Below, piece by piece: positions 35,543 to 42,782 of a stretch of 64,000 nt of DNA (within the stretch, counting starts at the first letter, position 1; every line of letters begins with the position of its first letter). The position numbers and the translations under genes were made by a program. Source of the DNA: Rhodohalobacter sp. 614A (GTDB lineage: Bacteria; Bacteroidota; Rhodothermia; Balneolales; Balneolaceae); assembly GCF_021462415.1 (NCBI RefSeq), contig NZ_JAKEDS010000001.1, positions 282,273-346,272 of the forward strand, written 5' to 3'. The notes below the pieces were generated by a model that saw only the letters and a program-made list of their open reading frames with translations, was not told the DNA's origin and did not search any database.

Positions 35543-36217
35543 TTACTCTTCGAAAACAAGGCTATCCGGTTCAGCTCCGAGTTCTTTCAGGTATTCCATC
35601 ATGTTTTCGATGAACTTGGGTGGCCCACAAACATAGAAAGGCTGGCCAAAATCGGTAATTTGTTCTTTGAGAAAATCTTTATCGATAAAACCATCAAGAA
35701 AAATATCCTGATCTGTGCCTTTCTCATTAGAGAGAACTGAGATAAAATCCTCATTCAGCATCCGTTCAAACTCTCCTCTCAAGATAACATCTTTTGCCGT
35801 TTTGTTTGAAAAGATGAGCTTATTTCCCTTCAGTTCTTCATTTTTGTAAAGTTGCCGTAAGATGGCTATAAATGGAGTTACACCGGCTCCGCCCGCCAGA
35901 AAAACTCCCGGGCCTTTATATTCAATCGTTCCCCACGGATCATCAATAATAAACTCATCACCAACTTTTAGTTTCCCGATTTGATCCGTAACCCCATCAT
36001 GATCCTCATAAATTTTAATGGTGAACTGAAGGTTTGGATCTTCATTCAGCGATGTAAATGTAAAGGGGCGTTTTTCATCCGTCCACTTGTCTTTGTTGAT
36101 AGCTACTTCCGTAGCCTGCCCCGGCGTAAATGAATAACCGTCGGGCTTTTCGTAGGTAAACTGTTTTACATCGTGAGTAATTTTCTCAATTGATTTGATG
36201 GCGACTGTATAACTCAT
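35543..36217 (-). CDS. ferredoxin/flavodoxin reductase-like FAD oxidoreductase
   Basis: This 224-aa flavoenzyme of the FNR superfamily has a FAD-binding barrel in residues 1-100 with RPFTFTSL near 50. The NAD(P)-binding domain follows, with FLAGGAGVTPFIAIL near 108 and the CGPPKFIENM segment near 196. It probably moves electrons between NAD(P)H and a small carrier. It is preceded on the same strand by a structured RNA element with an intrinsic terminator, so expression may be controlled by attenuation or be unrelated to that RNA. Confidence 0.88.
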   Translation of the reverse strand: MSYTVAIKSIEKITHDVKQFTYEKPDGYSFTPGQATEVAINKDKWTDEKRPFTFTSLNEDPNLQFTIKIYEDHDGVTDQIGKLKVGDEFIIDDPWGTIEYKGPGVFLAGGAGVTPFIAILRQLYKNEELKGNKLIFSNKTAKDVILRGEFERMLNEDFISVLSNEKGTDQDIFLDGFIDKDFLKEQITDFGQPFYVCGPPKFIENMMEYLKELGAEPDSLVFEE

Positions 36218-36303
36218 TGCAGGTCATTTTCTTGAAGTTCAACTTTATACTTTTTGAAAGAGAAGTGACTCGTAATTCGTTCCGTTGGATCCTTCAATTA
36301 CGG

Positions 36304-36445
36304 CAAAAAAAATGCCCCAAGCACGGGTACATACTTGGGACATTCTCTGTATGAATGACTGCCTTGTATTCAAGCTACGGTAAACTCAGGAGGTGAGTTT
36401 TAGAATACCAGACAATTCACGTTGTGAACTATGCTACAATCCATT
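36304..36445 (-). ncRNA. putative small RNA or leader element with CCUCC apical loop
   Basis: Read on the minus strand, segments pair as a long imperfect hairpin: GTGAAT (36420-36415) with ATTCAT (36356-36351), GTATTC (36408-36403) with GAATAC (36371-36366), and AAACTCA (36400-36394) with TGAGTTT (36388-36382). The CCTCC loop lies at 36393-36389. A smaller TTCAC/GTGAA hairpin precedes it as an alternative fold. It ends in a terminator at 36311-36344 followed by eight U. The loop equals an anti-Shine-Dalgarno core, so it could base-pair with ribosome-binding sites. It could instead be a 5' leader of the 36217 gene. The 5' end is a guess. Confidence 0.4.
36305..36344 (-). terminator. intrinsic terminator, minus strand
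   Basis: An 11-position stem (36311-36321 with 36334-36344) has a single C-A mismatch and a 12-base loop. It is followed on the minus strand by eight U residues (complement of A 36305-36312). It lies about 88 bp ahead of the reductase start, so it either ends a small RNA or is an attenuator. Confidence 0.6.
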
Positions 36446-36640
36446 GAGAAAATAATGAAACGAAATTCATCAAACAAATAAAAAAAGTAAATAATTGATA
36501 AATATTTTCATTTTCTTTTTATTGATTCTTCAGAATCTTGCCATTCGAAATGTATCGGCAAAATTCAAGTCTCATACATTCTCTGAAGAATTCTTGTCAG
36601 GTCTCTTTTTCAGGTCATTAAAAACAAATATTGAAACTCT

Positions 36641-37387
36641 ATGAATATTCAATCCTTTACATTTTTTCTTATTCTTTTCCTTGTCTTCTCTTCTCCGCAA
36701 CACGTTCGCTCGCAGTCATTAACCGAAACCAATCTGCTGGTTCAAAAAACCAATGATTTCACGGTTAACGGAACCGGTGACTCCGAAAATTGGTCGGAAA
36801 CCAACTGGGTAGAATTAATCCAGCGGACCAATCACCAAAACGACTCTGACAGAAAAACATCTGTTAAAGTCCTTTACTCAGAAACCGGTATCTACTTTCT
36901 TTTTCGTTGTGATGATGACCTGGTTTCCTCAACCATCACTTCACACTTTGAAGAACTGTGGCGTGAGGATGTAGTGGAAGTTTTCATATGGCCCAATGAG
37001 GGAGAAGAAGTTTATTTTGAATATGAACTATCCCCTCTTAATTATGAATTGCCCATTCTCGTTTCCAGAACCGATTCCGGTCAGTCTCATTGGATTCCAT
37101 TTACATTCAGTTACGACGAGGGTTTTTCCCGAAAGACTGTTCATCAAACATCGGCAACCGGAGGCATTTTGAAAAGCGGAGAGGAAATTTCTGAATGGAG
37201 AGCGGAATTCTTCATTCCATTTGAGCTTTTAATACCGCTCAAAAACAGAATTCCAAAATCAGGTTCAACCTGGAGAGCCAATATTTACCGTGTAGATCAC
37301 GATTATGGAACAACCAACTGGACGTGGCAACCCGTTACAACGAATTTCCATGACCTTTATAGTTACGGAACACTCGTTTTTGAATAA
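36641..37387 (+). CDS. secreted CBM9-like carbohydrate-binding protein
   Basis: This 248-aa protein has a signal peptide (to about residue 25). It then consists of one domain of the carbohydrate-binding family 9-like type: SVKVLYSETGIYFLFRCDDD, WREDVVEVFIWP and EWRAEFFIPFELL are the usual beta-sandwich signatures. It probably binds sugar ends in the periplasm or at the cell surface. It opens the plus-strand arm of the catabolic locus and converges with the DUF1080 gene. Confidence 0.85.
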   Translation: MNIQSFTFFLILFLVFSSPQHVRSQSLTETNLLVQKTNDFTVNGTGDSENWSETNWVELIQRTNHQNDSDRKTSVKVLYSETGIYFLFRCDDDLVSSTITSHFEELWREDVVEVFIWPNEGEEVYFEYELSPLNYELPILVSRTDSGQSHWIPFTFSYDEGFSRKTVHQTSATGGILKSGEEISEWRAEFFIPFELLIPLKNRIPKSGSTWRANIYRVDHDYGTTNWTWQPVTTNFHDLYSYGTLVFE

Positions 37388-37401
37388 TTAAAACCTCAGG
37401 A

Positions 37402-38145
37402 TTAAACCTCTCCAGCAGATTGGCCGGGTTGCAGAATTCCACCCGGCAATTCCATTATATCGATCTTGCGGAAATGAATTTCGGCACCTTCAGCTTCAGG
37501 ACAAATATATCCCTTTTTTCTTTGGGTAGATCTCATACCATTCACAAACTTTCCGTTGACACTTAGCTTGATGGTGCCGTCAATACAGACAACGATATAC
37601 CGGTTCCAGTTTCCAGCCCTTTTTACTCTGTTTTCGAGAGCGTAACTCCTGCCTTTCACCACATCAGACGGATTGTCGGGAATGGTTCCTTTTAAACCCA
37701 TAACAGGAAAAAGATGGCCGTGCGCATATTCAACAGGTCTTTCGTTTATTTCCGGCCATCCGGGATCAAGCATTTGAATCTCGACGCCCGTTGGAAAAGG
37801 CTCATCTTTATAAGGAGTGCCATCAGCCCAGATGAAAAACCCCGAATTTCCACCTTCATCCACAAATTTCCACTCAACGTCCAGAATAAAATTTTCATAC
37901 TGTTTTTCCGTCCTCATTACCCCTATAGGTTTGCCAGTACAAACCAGAGCTCCATCCTTCACTTTCCAGGTATCTTTGGATGTATTAACATCCGTAAAGC
38001 CGGTTAGATCCCGGCCATTAAAAATGGGTTGAAAACCAGGGATTGTTTGATTATCAGCCCCAATCTCACCAGAACCCATGATTCCAAATAAAGACCACAC
38101 TGCCGCGGCTGAAAAGCTACCCTTTAAAAAATCATCTCTATTCAT
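37402..38145 (-). CDS. DUF1080 family protein (3-keto-disaccharide hydrolase domain)
   Basis: This 247-aa protein has a Tat-like N-terminus and a single jelly-roll domain of the DUF1080 type. The opening is PIFNGRDLTGF, followed by WKVKDGALVCTG, NSGFFIWA and a closing EIHFRKIDIMELPG. The domain belongs to a family whose characterised members act on 3-keto-glycosides, splitting the glycosidic bond after C3 oxidation. That role would match the oxidoreductases of this locus. The first residues (MNRDDFLKGSF) look like a weak Tat signal, so export is likely. Confidence 0.85.
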   Translation of the reverse strand: MNRDDFLKGSFSAAAVWSLFGIMGSGEIGADNQTIPGFQPIFNGRDLTGFTDVNTSKDTWKVKDGALVCTGKPIGVMRTEKQYENFILDVEWKFVDEGGNSGFFIWADGTPYKDEPFPTGVEIQMLDPGWPEINERPVEYAHGHLFPVMGLKGTIPDNPSDVVKGRSYALENRVKRAGNWNRYIVVCIDGTIKLSVNGKFVNGMRSTQRKKGYICPEAEGAEIHFRKIDIMELPGGILQPGQSAGEV

Positions 38146-38385
38146 ATCAATCCAAAGATTCTGTGAAGTGTAATTTCAGTGCTATGAATGTCAGCAATCC
38201 TAAACCTGACTAACATAAATCATATGCTGATTTTTCCTTTATCTAAAAGAAAAATACTATATGAAACAAATATTTATAAAAAATAAGGCTACGAAAAATA
38301 TTACCTTTCAAATAAAAGACGTTTACAGTACATTGACAAAAGAAACATTCAAAATGAAAGCATTTTCAAAGCATACTCTTATTCA

Positions 38386-39486
38386 ATGAATCACACCAAA
38401 CTCCTCCTACTTTTCTCCTCCGTTTTACTTCTGATTTTGTCCGCCTGCCAAAATAAATCCGCTGAATCGGATAGCTTTTACAGTATTGAAGATTTTCAAA
38501 GTGTAGAAAAAATTGATGCCCATGTTCATTTGAATATAGCCAACCCCGTGGTTATTGAACAGGGAATTGAGGATAACATGAAATTGATTACCCTGAATGT
38601 TGCCAACGGAAGAACACCGGTGGCGGAGCAGCAACGTGTAGCTCTCGAGCTAAAGAATGATTATCCCGACAGGCTGGCGTACACCTCTGCTTTTTCCCTG
38701 GAGGGTTTTAATGATTCCGAAACCTGGCAGCAGAACACGATGGATTATCTTGAACAATCTTTTGAAAATGGAGCCATTGGCGTAAAAGTCTGGAAAAACA
38801 TCGGTATGGAATTGCAAGATGAAGATGGAAATTTTGTGATGGTCGACGATCCTCAATTTGATCCCATTTTCGAATATCTCTCCCAGAACAACATTCCCCT
38901 TTTCGGTCATATCGGCGAACCCAGAAATTGCTGGCTTCCTCTTGAAGAAATGACTGTAGCAAATGATCGTGATTACTTCGAAAACAATCCGAAATATCAT
39001 ATGTATCAGCATCCGGAATATCCATCTTACGAAGAGATTGTCGCAGCGCGGGATAACATGCTGGATAAGAATCCGGACCTGGCTTTTTTCGGAGCCCATC
39101 TTGGCAGTATGGAATGGAGTATTGAAATGATGAGTGAGCATCTGGATAAATATCCGCATATGATTCTTGGCATGGCTCATCGAATTCCGCACCTGCAATA
39201 CCTCGCTCAAAAAGACCGCGAAGCACTTCGAAACTTTTTTATCAAATACCAAGACCGCTTTTTATACTCAACCGATCTTCACCTTTATGATTCTTCCAAT
39301 CCCGAAGAAGTAAGACAGCTTGCTGCGGATACATGGAAAAAAGACTGGGAGTTTTTTGTAACCGACAATACCCTCGAAGTATGGCAGGTAGAAGGAAGTT
39401 TCCAGGGGCTGAAATTACCAAAAGAAGTGGTTGATAAAATTTATCGCGAAAACGCTCGTGACCGGATTCCCGGCCTCGGTCTTTAA
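38386..39486 (+). CDS. amidohydrolase-2 family lipoprotein (copy A)
   Basis: This 366-aa lipoprotein (lipobox LSAC, Cys 21) has a metal-dependent TIM barrel. The ligand motif DAHVH (His 46, His 48), a His in FGHIGEP, a His in FGAHLGS and the Asp in YSTDLHLY are in the right order for the amidohydrolase-2 superfamily. That group includes sugar lactonases and decarboxylases. It is a clear paralogue of the lipoprotein at 44579-45757, sharing NCWLPLEEMTV and KEVVDKIY segments. It is first in a plus-strand run that continues with a DUF5009 membrane protein 27 bp downstream. Confidence 0.88.
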   Translation: MNHTKLLLLFSSVLLLILSACQNKSAESDSFYSIEDFQSVEKIDAHVHLNIANPVVIEQGIEDNMKLITLNVANGRTPVAEQQRVALELKNDYPDRLAYTSAFSLEGFNDSETWQQNTMDYLEQSFENGAIGVKVWKNIGMELQDEDGNFVMVDDPQFDPIFEYLSQNNIPLFGHIGEPRNCWLPLEEMTVANDRDYFENNPKYHMYQHPEYPSYEEIVAARDNMLDKNPDLAFFGAHLGSMEWSIEMMSEHLDKYPHMILGMAHRIPHLQYLAQKDREALRNFFIKYQDRFLYSTDLHLYDSSNPEEVRQLAADTWKKDWEFFVTDNTLEVWQVEGSFQGLKLPKEVVDKIYRENARDRIPGLGL

Positions 39487-39513
39487 CTTTTTTGAACCAT
39501 ACTTTTTTTTGAA

Positions 39514-40638
39514 ATGGATAAAATTGATAATTCGCTGCTAGATAATTACGGACGCCTTTTATCGCTCGATTTTTACAGAGGGTTCACCATGTTTTTGCTG
39601 ATAGCTGAGGGAGCCGGATTGTGGATAGCTATCAGCAACTCTTATTTTGACGGCAGTATTATAGGAGCTATTTCCACTCAATTTCATCACCATCCCTGGA
39701 ACGGCTTACGTTTTTGGGATCTTGTTCAGCCTTTCTTCATGTTTATTGTTGGGGTGGCCATGCCCATCTCATTGGGCAGACGATGGGCCCGTGGCGATTC
39801 CTGGGAAAGCACTTTCAAACACGTGCTATATCGTGCATTCATGCTTCTCCTCCTCGGATTAACCATCCATTGTGTCTATTCCGGCGAGATTGTTTTTGAA
39901 CTTTGGAATGTCCTTTCGCAACTCTCGTTCACTTATCTTCTAGCCTTTCTCATCATGAGAAAAAGCTGGAAATTTCAGATCAGTTTCTCCGTTGGGCTGT
40001 TATTACTTACGGAGTTTCTCTACCGAATTTGGTGGGTTGAAGGATTTAATCAGCCTTTTACTCCGGACCAAAATTTCGGTACATGGATGGATCTCCTGTT
40101 AATGGGAAAAATTAGTGGTGGACACTGGGTAGTCATTAATGCCCTTCCAACAGCCGCTCACACCATTTGGGGAGTTATTGCTGGTCAGCTTTTGATCAGC
40201 AATCGTGAAACCAGCGAAAAATTTAAAAAATTAATCATCTTTGGTGTTGGTTTAGCCATTCTTGGATACCTGATGGATCCCTTGATTACTCCCATCATTA
40301 AACGGATTGCAACCACTTCGTTTACGATTGTGAGCGGTGGATGGTGTCTTTTGGTATTGGCCGGCTCCTTCTACGTTTTTGATGTAAAAAAATGGCAAAC
40401 AAATTCAGCTCGCTTTTTTGCCATTGTCGGTATGAATCCGCTGTTTATTTACCTGTTCAGTGAGTTTGGTGTAGTGGATTGGCTGTACGACTTTGTTCAA
40501 ATTTTTACGACTGATATTTTGGGAATTGTAGCCATGCCTGAAGCCTGGATTAATGTTTTTACAGCATCCATTGTTCTCGGGTTGATGTGGTATATCACAT
40601 ACTTTCTGTACAAGCGGAAAATTTTTATTTCGATTTAG
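39514..40638 (+). CDS. DUF5009/HGSNAT-like integral membrane acyltransferase-like protein
   Basis: This 374-aa protein has about ten membrane segments and the family opening LLSLDFYRGFTMFLLIAEGAG. The family resembles the membrane N-acetyltransferase of lysosomal heparan breakdown and is often found beside sugar-utilisation genes in Bacteroidota. It could acetylate or transport a sugar derivative across the inner membrane. Lying 27 bp after an amidohydrolase and 29 bp before a PHP metallohydrolase suggests one operon. Confidence 0.82.
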   Translation: MDKIDNSLLDNYGRLLSLDFYRGFTMFLLIAEGAGLWIAISNSYFDGSIIGAISTQFHHHPWNGLRFWDLVQPFFMFIVGVAMPISLGRRWARGDSWESTFKHVLYRAFMLLLLGLTIHCVYSGEIVFELWNVLSQLSFTYLLAFLIMRKSWKFQISFSVGLLLLTEFLYRIWWVEGFNQPFTPDQNFGTWMDLLLMGKISGGHWVVINALPTAAHTIWGVIAGQLLISNRETSEKFKKLIIFGVGLAILGYLMDPLITPIIKRIATTSFTIVSGGWCLLVLAGSFYVFDVKKWQTNSARFFAIVGMNPLFIYLFSEFGVVDWLYDFVQIFTTDILGIVAMPEAWINVFTASIVLGLMWYITYFLYKRKIFISI

Positions 40639-40667
40639 ATTTCAATCCCAAAAAATGTTTGTAGAGT

Positions 40668-42782
40668 ATGGATGAAAATCAGTTTCAATACAAATCATGC
40701 TCTACAATCATTTTCGGTTTTGTAAACCTGTTTTTCTTTTTCCTTGTAGTCCTTTCAATACCACAGCCTCTTTTTGCACAGGGAAATATCTACAAATTAA
40801 CTCCGGAACTTCATCATCTGCGAACAACTGATGCCAGAGAGTGGAGTGATTTTCCACAAGAGAATCTACTGAAAGAATTTAAGACCCGGTTTGAAGCAAA
40901 GGAAAATCAAACTGAATTCACGCTTCGGCTTCGCCAGATAAATGTGAAGCAAAATTGGGAAATCAGCCTGAACGGTGTTCCATTAACGCGTCTTCATCAA
41001 AATGAAGCTGATATCATTGCCTACTTTATCATACCGGCAGGGATTTTAACCTCAGGACAAAATGAGCTGGCTATTCAACAATCCAATCAACTGCCGGATG
41101 ATATTATAGTTGGAGATATACAAATCATCCAACAAACTGTTGAGAACGTGTTAAAAAATGGCGAAGTAATTGTTCGCGTAGTAGATCGTGACACCGGTAG
41201 TCCATTGCCTTCGCGAATTACCGTTGTCAATGAACACCAATCACTCCAAACCATCTGGCCTTCTGCAGACAGCCTGACCACCGTACGCCCCGGCGTTATT
41301 TATACAGGAACGGGATCTGCCAATTTTTTTCTTCCTGAAGGCAAATATACAATCTATGCTGGAAGGGGAATGGAATACAGTGTCGACTCTACAGCGGTTT
41401 CCATCACCGGTTCAGATCAACTTTTTGAGACAGAGCTTTCTATTTATCGTCAGGTTGACACAGAAGGATTTATCAGTAGTGATACACATATTCACACTTT
41501 TACCCACTCGCGGCACGGCGATGCTTCCATTCACGAAAGGATGCTGACAATTGCCGGCGAAGGAATTGAGCTGCCCATTGCAACAGATCATAATCTCCAT
41601 ATAGATTTTAAGCCTGCTGCTGAGAAAATGAAGATTGACAACTACTTTACACCGGTAATTGGAAACGAAGTCACAACCCCTTTGGGGCATTTCAATGTCT
41701 TCCCGGTATTGGAAAAAGCCCCGCCGCCGGAATCCAACATCGAAAATTGGGAGATTTTATTCGATCATATATATGATACTCCCAACGCATCCGTCGTAAT
41801 TTTCAATCACGGACGTGACATTCACGGAGGATTCAGACCTCTCGACAGTGAATTCTTTAATGAAATAACCGGAACATTTCAGAAGGGTTTCAATCCTGAA
41901 TTTAATGCCATGGAAGTTCTCAATTCCGGAGCTCATCAATCGGATATTATGCAGCTTTTCCATGATTGGTTTGCCATGACGAACCGCGGATATACCCTGA
42001 CACCCGTTGCCGGAAGTGACTCTCATGACGTCAATCGTTACATCCTGGGACAAGCAAGAACCTATATCGAATTCCCGGATGATGACGTCTCAAATATGAA
42101 TATTCCGAAAGCATCTGAACGGATTGTACAGGGCAAAGTTGGCATTGGAATGGGACTTTTTACCACCATGACTGTAAATGAAATGTTTACTGCCGGCGAT
42201 CTTGTACCGGTCCGGGATTCCATAGAAGTTTCGATTCGCGTTCAGGGACCCGATTGGATAGATGCCGATGTAATCGAATTATACCAAAATGGCCAGATCG
42301 TCCGATCAGAAAAAATCTCAACAAAATCCCGCGCCGGACTGAAATGGGAAGGAAGCTGGAATCTCCCAAAACTTAATCATGACTCCTTCCTGGTTGCTAT
42401 CGCACGAGGTCCCGGAATCACAAAACCATTCTGGCCCATTGCACGTCCCTGGGAACCTAAATCGATCGAATGGACGCCTGAAGTAATCGGGACAACAGGT
42501 GCAATTTGGCTGGATGAAGATGGAAATGGAAAAAGAACTTCTGCTTTTGAATATGCAACTGAAGTCATGGAATTATCAGAGGGCTTTTTTTCTGAATTAC
42601 TTCAACAGCTCGAAAATTTTGATCAGGCCGTAGCTATTCAGGCTGCCGGTATATTTTTTGAAGAACATTCCAATCAACTTCCACTTTCAGAAGAAATGCA
42701 CCGTTTAATCGAAGCTTCTGCTCCCCAGGTTAGGAAAGGGATGAACATGTACCTGGATTATCAGAAACAGATTGGAGAGTAA
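40668..42782 (+). CDS. CehA/McbA-family PHP-type metallohydrolase
   Basis: The 704-aa exported protein has a signal peptide (to about residue 38), an N-terminal beta domain, and a PHP-like metal centre in residues 270-500. Motif SSDTHIHTFTHSRHGD, ATDHN, NHGRDIHGG and AGSDSHDVN carry the expected His/Asp ligands. CehA and McbA relatives hydrolyse carbamate or phosphoester bonds, but many homologues in this setting have unknown substrates. It ends the plus-strand run and converges with the GMC oxidoreductase. Confidence 0.85.
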   Translation: MDENQFQYKSCSTIIFGFVNLFFFFLVVLSIPQPLFAQGNIYKLTPELHHLRTTDAREWSDFPQENLLKEFKTRFEAKENQTEFTLRLRQINVKQNWEISLNGVPLTRLHQNEADIIAYFIIPAGILTSGQNELAIQQSNQLPDDIIVGDIQIIQQTVENVLKNGEVIVRVVDRDTGSPLPSRITVVNEHQSLQTIWPSADSLTTVRPGVIYTGTGSANFFLPEGKYTIYAGRGMEYSVDSTAVSITGSDQLFETELSIYRQVDTEGFISSDTHIHTFTHSRHGDASIHERMLTIAGEGIELPIATDHNLHIDFKPAAEKMKIDNYFTPVIGNEVTTPLGHFNVFPVLEKAPPPESNIENWEILFDHIYDTPNASVVIFNHGRDIHGGFRPLDSEFFNEITGTFQKGFNPEFNAMEVLNSGAHQSDIMQLFHDWFAMTNRGYTLTPVAGSDSHDVNRYILGQARTYIEFPDDDVSNMNIPKASERIVQGKVGIGMGLFTTMTVNEMFTAGDLVPVRDSIEVSIRVQGPDWIDADVIELYQNGQIVRSEKISTKSRAGLKWEGSWNLPKLNHDSFLVAIARGPGITKPFWPIARPWEPKSIEWTPEVIGTTGAIWLDEDGNGKRTSAFEYATEVMELSEGFFSELLQQLENFDQAVAIQAAGIFFEEHSNQLPLSEEMHRLIEASAPQVRKGMNMYLDYQKQIGE

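Follow-up and report, generated by a model that had tools for sequence, protein, structure and literature searches.

The DNA analysed here, a 64,000-nucleotide stretch of the genome of Rhodohalobacter sp. 614A (contig NZ_JAKEDS010000001.1; hereafter the window), contains an intergenic region of 423 bp (36218-36640, a length that the initial annotation of this DNA had given correctly) between a reductase gene on the minus strand and a gene for a CBM9-type protein on the plus strand. Within this region lies a putative small RNA gene that is read from the minus strand. The features referred to below, with positions counted from the first letter of the window, are as follows.

36641 to 37387, plus strand: gene for a CBM9-type domain protein (Pfam CBM9_1), the divergent neighbour, syntenic with the RNA in relatives
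36429 to 36436, minus strand: promoter -7-like element TAGCATAG, inside the conserved block TAGCnTnGTTCAC (alignments A4 and A7); function putative
36305 to 36424, minus strand: putative small RNA gene, roughly 120 nt long, matched by covariance model R2 and conserved against its flanks in relatives; ends placed by the -7-like element (5') and the terminator (3')
36359 to 36415, minus strand: long predicted hairpin, whose outer and middle helices are matched in the relatives' loci L108 and L109
36415-36410 with 36364-36359, minus strand: outer helix, UUGUCU/AGGCAG (centroid fold)
36408-36403 with 36371-36366, minus strand: middle helix, GUAUUC/GAAUAC (centroid fold)
36371 to 36402, minus strand: apical extension of 32 nt with the CCUCC loop, found in this species only, an insert relative to the relatives' model
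36400-36394 with 36388-36382, minus strand: apical helix, AAACUCA-CCUCC-UGAGUUU (centroid fold)
36349 to 36358, minus strand: linker UCAUUCAUAC, identical in three species, unpaired in two-domain folds; candidate seed
36305 to 36347, minus strand: predicted intrinsic terminator with a 19-bp stem and U8, homologous to a terminator in relatives that changes on both sides
36250 to 36282, minus strand: promoter-like element of the reductase gene, GAACG...CTCTTTCAAA, 3' of the RNA terminator (GAAYG in most orthologues; alignment with L046 and L047)
35543 to 36217, minus strand: gene for an FAD/NAD-binding (FNR-type) reductase (Pfam FAD_binding_6/NAD_binding_1), a neighbour in this genome only and outside the RNA unit

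Fold prediction for minus-strand positions 36440-36302 gave three stacked hairpin segments with CCUCC at the tip, followed by the terminator, so that both the multi-segment hairpin and the terminator with eight U (36312-36305) of the initial annotation are borne out by the sequence and the centroid fold. The isolated terminator has a predicted energy of -24.9 kcal/mol (z -7.4), and every other strong intergenic terminator in a 464-kb sample of this genome, on which all of our base rates for the genome rest, has a shorter stem. A generic terminator scan missed it, probably because A-U pairs extend into the U tract. By itself, the CCUCC hairpin lies only modestly above chance (z -2.8 with the boundaries first drawn for it, z -1.5 over 94 nt), while the whole 171 nt reach z -4.1. 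A search with the exact loop-hairpin pattern showed no enrichment over a reversed control. The covariance search against Rfam returned no match at or above a gathering cut-off, its weak matches look like chance, and this agrees with the earlier statement that no known riboswitch or small RNA family could be recognised here.

A related element was found upstream of the orthologues of the CBM9-type gene in two relatives (G015 and G005), with its orientation unchanged. Alignment showed that it shares with the window element the block TAGCnTnGTTCAC, the linker UCAUUCAUAC, and the terminator. The covariance model R2, which was built from the two relatives only with the window sequence left out, had a sole match in 464 kb, at window positions 36306-36436 (29.9 bits, E 5.5e-4, with E-values being rough). 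The L108 and L109 elements share 95.5% identity, compared with 83-88% for the coding sequence of the CBM9, amidohydrolase, and PIG-L genes and 37-75% for the intergenic flanks, and the conserved block has sharp edges at the -7-like element, which is TAGCTTTG in both relatives, and at the terminator. This difference between element and flanks is the strongest evidence for functionality, and it is because of conservation, not fold energy, that we consider the element to be real. In the three-row alignment A7, which was fitted to the structure and in which two of the sequences are close to each other, 98.6% of pair cells hold standard pairs; six pairs have both partners changed, compared with 2.1 in shuffles and 0-1 in slid-partner controls, and these two-sided changes support the predicted fold. 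The stems, whose loss in relatives had been named as grounds for abandoning the element, are thus kept in two relatives, and the RNAs of these relatives fold well on their own (z -5.7 and -6.3). The relatives' TAGCTTTG matches the pattern TAnnTTTG, from which the window's TAGCATAG deviates at two positions; a de novo promoter motif search derived no genome-wide motif.

With all first-look candidates scored, the element occurs in 3 of 28 genomes of the genus, and these represent two independent lineages at most because the relatives are mutually close. Searches with models R2 and R3 over relatives gave, beyond the three members, only tRNA-like or terminator-like matches that have neither the linker nor the promoter block, and nucleotide BLAST against 196 relatives found just short chance matches. 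The wider searches beyond the genus used strict filters that also dropped the window's own element, so homologues in other genera may be missed. Two kinds of candidate were rejected. The G106 match, which was the only one besides the query when a single-sequence model was run over 196 genomes, is no more than a generic terminator, which the model matches on either strand, and two viral contigs with a 19-mer gave just a 12-13 bit fragment match that we took as chance.

The place and orientation of the RNA are kept in both relatives relative to the CBM9-type gene, not the reductase gene. The gene order in both is PIG-L (convergent), RNA, CBM9 (divergent), and amidohydrolase, whereas in the window the reductase gene occupies the place of PIG-L and a 3-keto-disaccharide hydrolase gene lies between the CBM9 and amidohydrolase genes. 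As the gene after the terminator in relatives is convergent, the RNA leads into nothing and would form a stand-alone transcript unit there. In the window, the cluster at 36641-42782 encodes the CBM9-type protein, an amidohydrolase, and, at 39514 and 40668, two large proteins for which Pfam gave no match; PIG-L and TIM-barrel genes adjoin this cluster in relatives. Its content suggests a locus for the use of carbohydrates or amino sugars.

This arrangement bears directly on the earlier proposal that the element is an attenuator of the gene at 36217. The terminator is co-directional with the reductase gene and lies about 88 nt upstream of its start codon, much like leader attenuators with intrinsic terminators, and a cis-acting attenuator or riboswitch in a reductase leader would be arranged in this way. 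However, the RNA homologues lie at another locus, where there is no co-directional gene downstream and where the convergent gene behind them means that the RNA cannot be an attenuator. Relatives of the reductase put this genome in the Balneolaceae, close to Rhodohalobacter. Orthologues of the reductase were found in 35 of 92 family genomes, this one included, and the element is absent upstream of all those examined, including the two nearest. Most of these orthologues have GAAYG 55-67 nt before the ATG; the window has it at -66 (36282-36278), 3' of the terminator and ahead of the ATG, suggesting that the reductase gene probably has its own promoter and that the terminator is not its attenuator. 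We consider a leader function very unlikely and have set the earlier proposal aside. A DNA element made of operator palindromes, with no RNA involved, seems highly improbable as well. The inverted repeats AAACTCA-N5-TGAGTTT and TTCAC-N3-GTGAA are present in the sequence, but the former is absent from relatives, and its core ACTCA-N5-TGAGT occurs at 3 genomic places against 6 for a reversed control, which is no excess. Conservation also stops at the terminator and the stems change on both sides together, as would be expected of an RNA rather than of an operator. Another alternative is that the RNA acts mainly on the divergent CBM9 gene by pairing around its start codon, or is merely co-regulated with the carbohydrate-like cluster. 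The RNA is syntenic with the CBM9 gene in 3 of 3 species, and each species has a 7-base complement at the CBM9 start (UAUGAAU/AUUCAUA in the window, AUGGUAU/AUACCAU in the relatives). These pairs are in differing registers and weak (-7.1 kcal/mol in the relatives), however, UAUGAAU stands at the start of 15 of 321 sampled genes (about 5%), and synteny across three close species is weak evidence. We therefore regard this alternative as unlikely, and the 7-base complements as a lead and not a result.

The remaining alternatives concern the CCUCC tip, which had been proposed to pair with Shine-Dalgarno (SD) sequences. A trans-acting anti-SD RNA of this kind would sequester ribosome-binding sites through the loop (36393-36389), which is fully exposed in the predicted fold with an unpaired probability of about 1. 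The hairpin also carries UCACCUCCU, which equals the usual 3' tail of 16S rRNA. Against this, the stem of the relatives ends in CUCUA or UUUUA loops, and neither homologue has the CCUCC hairpin. The 464-kb sample contains seven hairpins with a CCUCC loop and a stem of 7 bp or more, and all but one of these are within genes. Potential targets are few in the genome sample, where sequences upstream of genes are A-rich and SD sequences are near chance level: strong SD 5-mers precede 11 of 320 sampled genes, compared with 3 genes at one control position and 8 at another, and AGGAGG was found near the start of one gene in 321. It has also been reported that Bacteroidetes, the wider phylum, do without SD use (PMC3155529, PMC6847099), and that their 16S 3' tail is ACCUCCUU (PMC3155529). 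The known anti-SD small RNAs of Alphaproteobacteria (Alpha-r14, or "cuckoo" RNAs; PMC10746234) resemble the window element in displaying a CCUCC-containing loop on a hairpin, but they have an ultraconserved CCUCCUCCC in three hairpins, whereas the present element has CCUCC only once, in one species, and its homologues lack it. Because SD targets are few and the loop is lacking in relatives, the anti-SD idea is not supported for this family, and we judge it to be very improbable. It is also very unlikely that this one species grafted a 16S 3'-tail mimic (UCACCUCCU, partly exposed on the hairpin) onto a conserved small RNA, which would give an SD-poor bacterium a decoy or a regulator for its few anti-SD-using mRNAs or ribosomal factors. 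Only one species has the CCUCC tip, and the RNA probably does not depend on it for its function. Of all parts of the RNA the tip is conserved least, and it illustrates how a species-specific loop can mislead.

What we consider likely, with good if not full confidence, is an independent intergenic small RNA gene on the minus strand, beginning near 36424 and ending near 36305, with pairing in trans through the linker as its most likely mode of action. A putative promoter region, body, fold, and terminator are kept in three related salt-loving species and no co-directional gene follows in the relatives, all of which favours the small RNA that the initial annotation had suggested. Of that interpretation as a whole, the small RNA of no known family stands, while the anti-SD loop and the attenuator do not. 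Judged by its sequence features, the element is a previously undescribed, clade-restricted small RNA of an ordinary kind, and a literature search found no paper naming Balneolaceae together with small RNA. From these features we infer that it is transcribed, where it starts, that the linker serves as a seed, and that it regulates by base pairing.

The linker UCAUUCAUAC, at 10 nt, is the sole invariant exposed segment within the RNA body, which makes it the likeliest functional part and the best candidate for a base-pairing seed. In the mechanism we propose, the RNA would be transcribed from its own promoter region as a long stem-loop, the exposed linker UCAUUCAUAC, and an intrinsic terminator, and the linker would pair with target mRNAs in trans without Hfq. 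A search for Hfq that gave positives in 5 of 14 control genomes detected none in this genome. The natural guess is that pairing takes place over translation starts, which we favour because the linker complement GUAUGAAUGA contains an AUG start codon and because the small RNA GibS of Bacteroides thetaiotaomicron pairs over start codons via a conserved exposed segment (PMC7366714). GibS also adjoins a carbohydrate operon (PMC7366714). As is proposed for the element described here, it is intergenic, independently transcribed, and of similar length (145 nt), with an intrinsic terminator, a conserved single-stranded segment, and a host that lacks Hfq (PMC7366714). By description, which is the basis of this comparison, GibS differs in being largely unfolded with a seed at its 5' end, whereas the window RNA has a strong hairpin body and a candidate seed between the hairpin and the terminator.

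A search for targets by linker complementarity yielded nothing conserved, and exact complements of the 10-nt linker revealed no gene start common to the species. The best linker duplex among 321 gene starts was with the gene at 40668 on the plus strand (GUAUGGAUGA, -12.8 kcal/mol), a few genes away from the RNA in the same cluster. Shuffled seeds equalled this best start-region duplex in 7 of 60 cases; the duplex is not kept in G015, and the examined stretch of G005 contains no orthologue of 40668. The element offers a concrete, bounded, and conserved locus in a genome where no Hfq was detected, and its short invariant unpaired segment lends itself to simple target tests.

Several minor observations were made at this locus. 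In many Balneolaceae orthologues of the reductase gene (L046-L074), GAAYG is followed by TTGTA after 15 nt, though the upstream genes differ, and in this genome none of 182 sampled genes has GAAYG-N14-16-TTGTA upstream; it may be a site for a dedicated regulator or sigma factor. By eye, ACATTCTCTG in the upstream region of the CBM9 gene (36578-36587, plus strand) and CAGAGAAUGU at the start of the RNA terminator (36341-36350, minus strand) form a perfect 10-base complement, but none was seen in relatives and it is probably due to chance. Finally, a 14-codon open reading frame (MDCSIVHNVNCLVF; 36398-36442, minus strand) overlaps the RNA gene in its 5' part, stopping within the hairpin, and inspection by eye placed the relatives' 13-codon open reading frame (MLYILVETIIHTI / MFYILVETIIHTI) at another position in the RNA and with another sequence.
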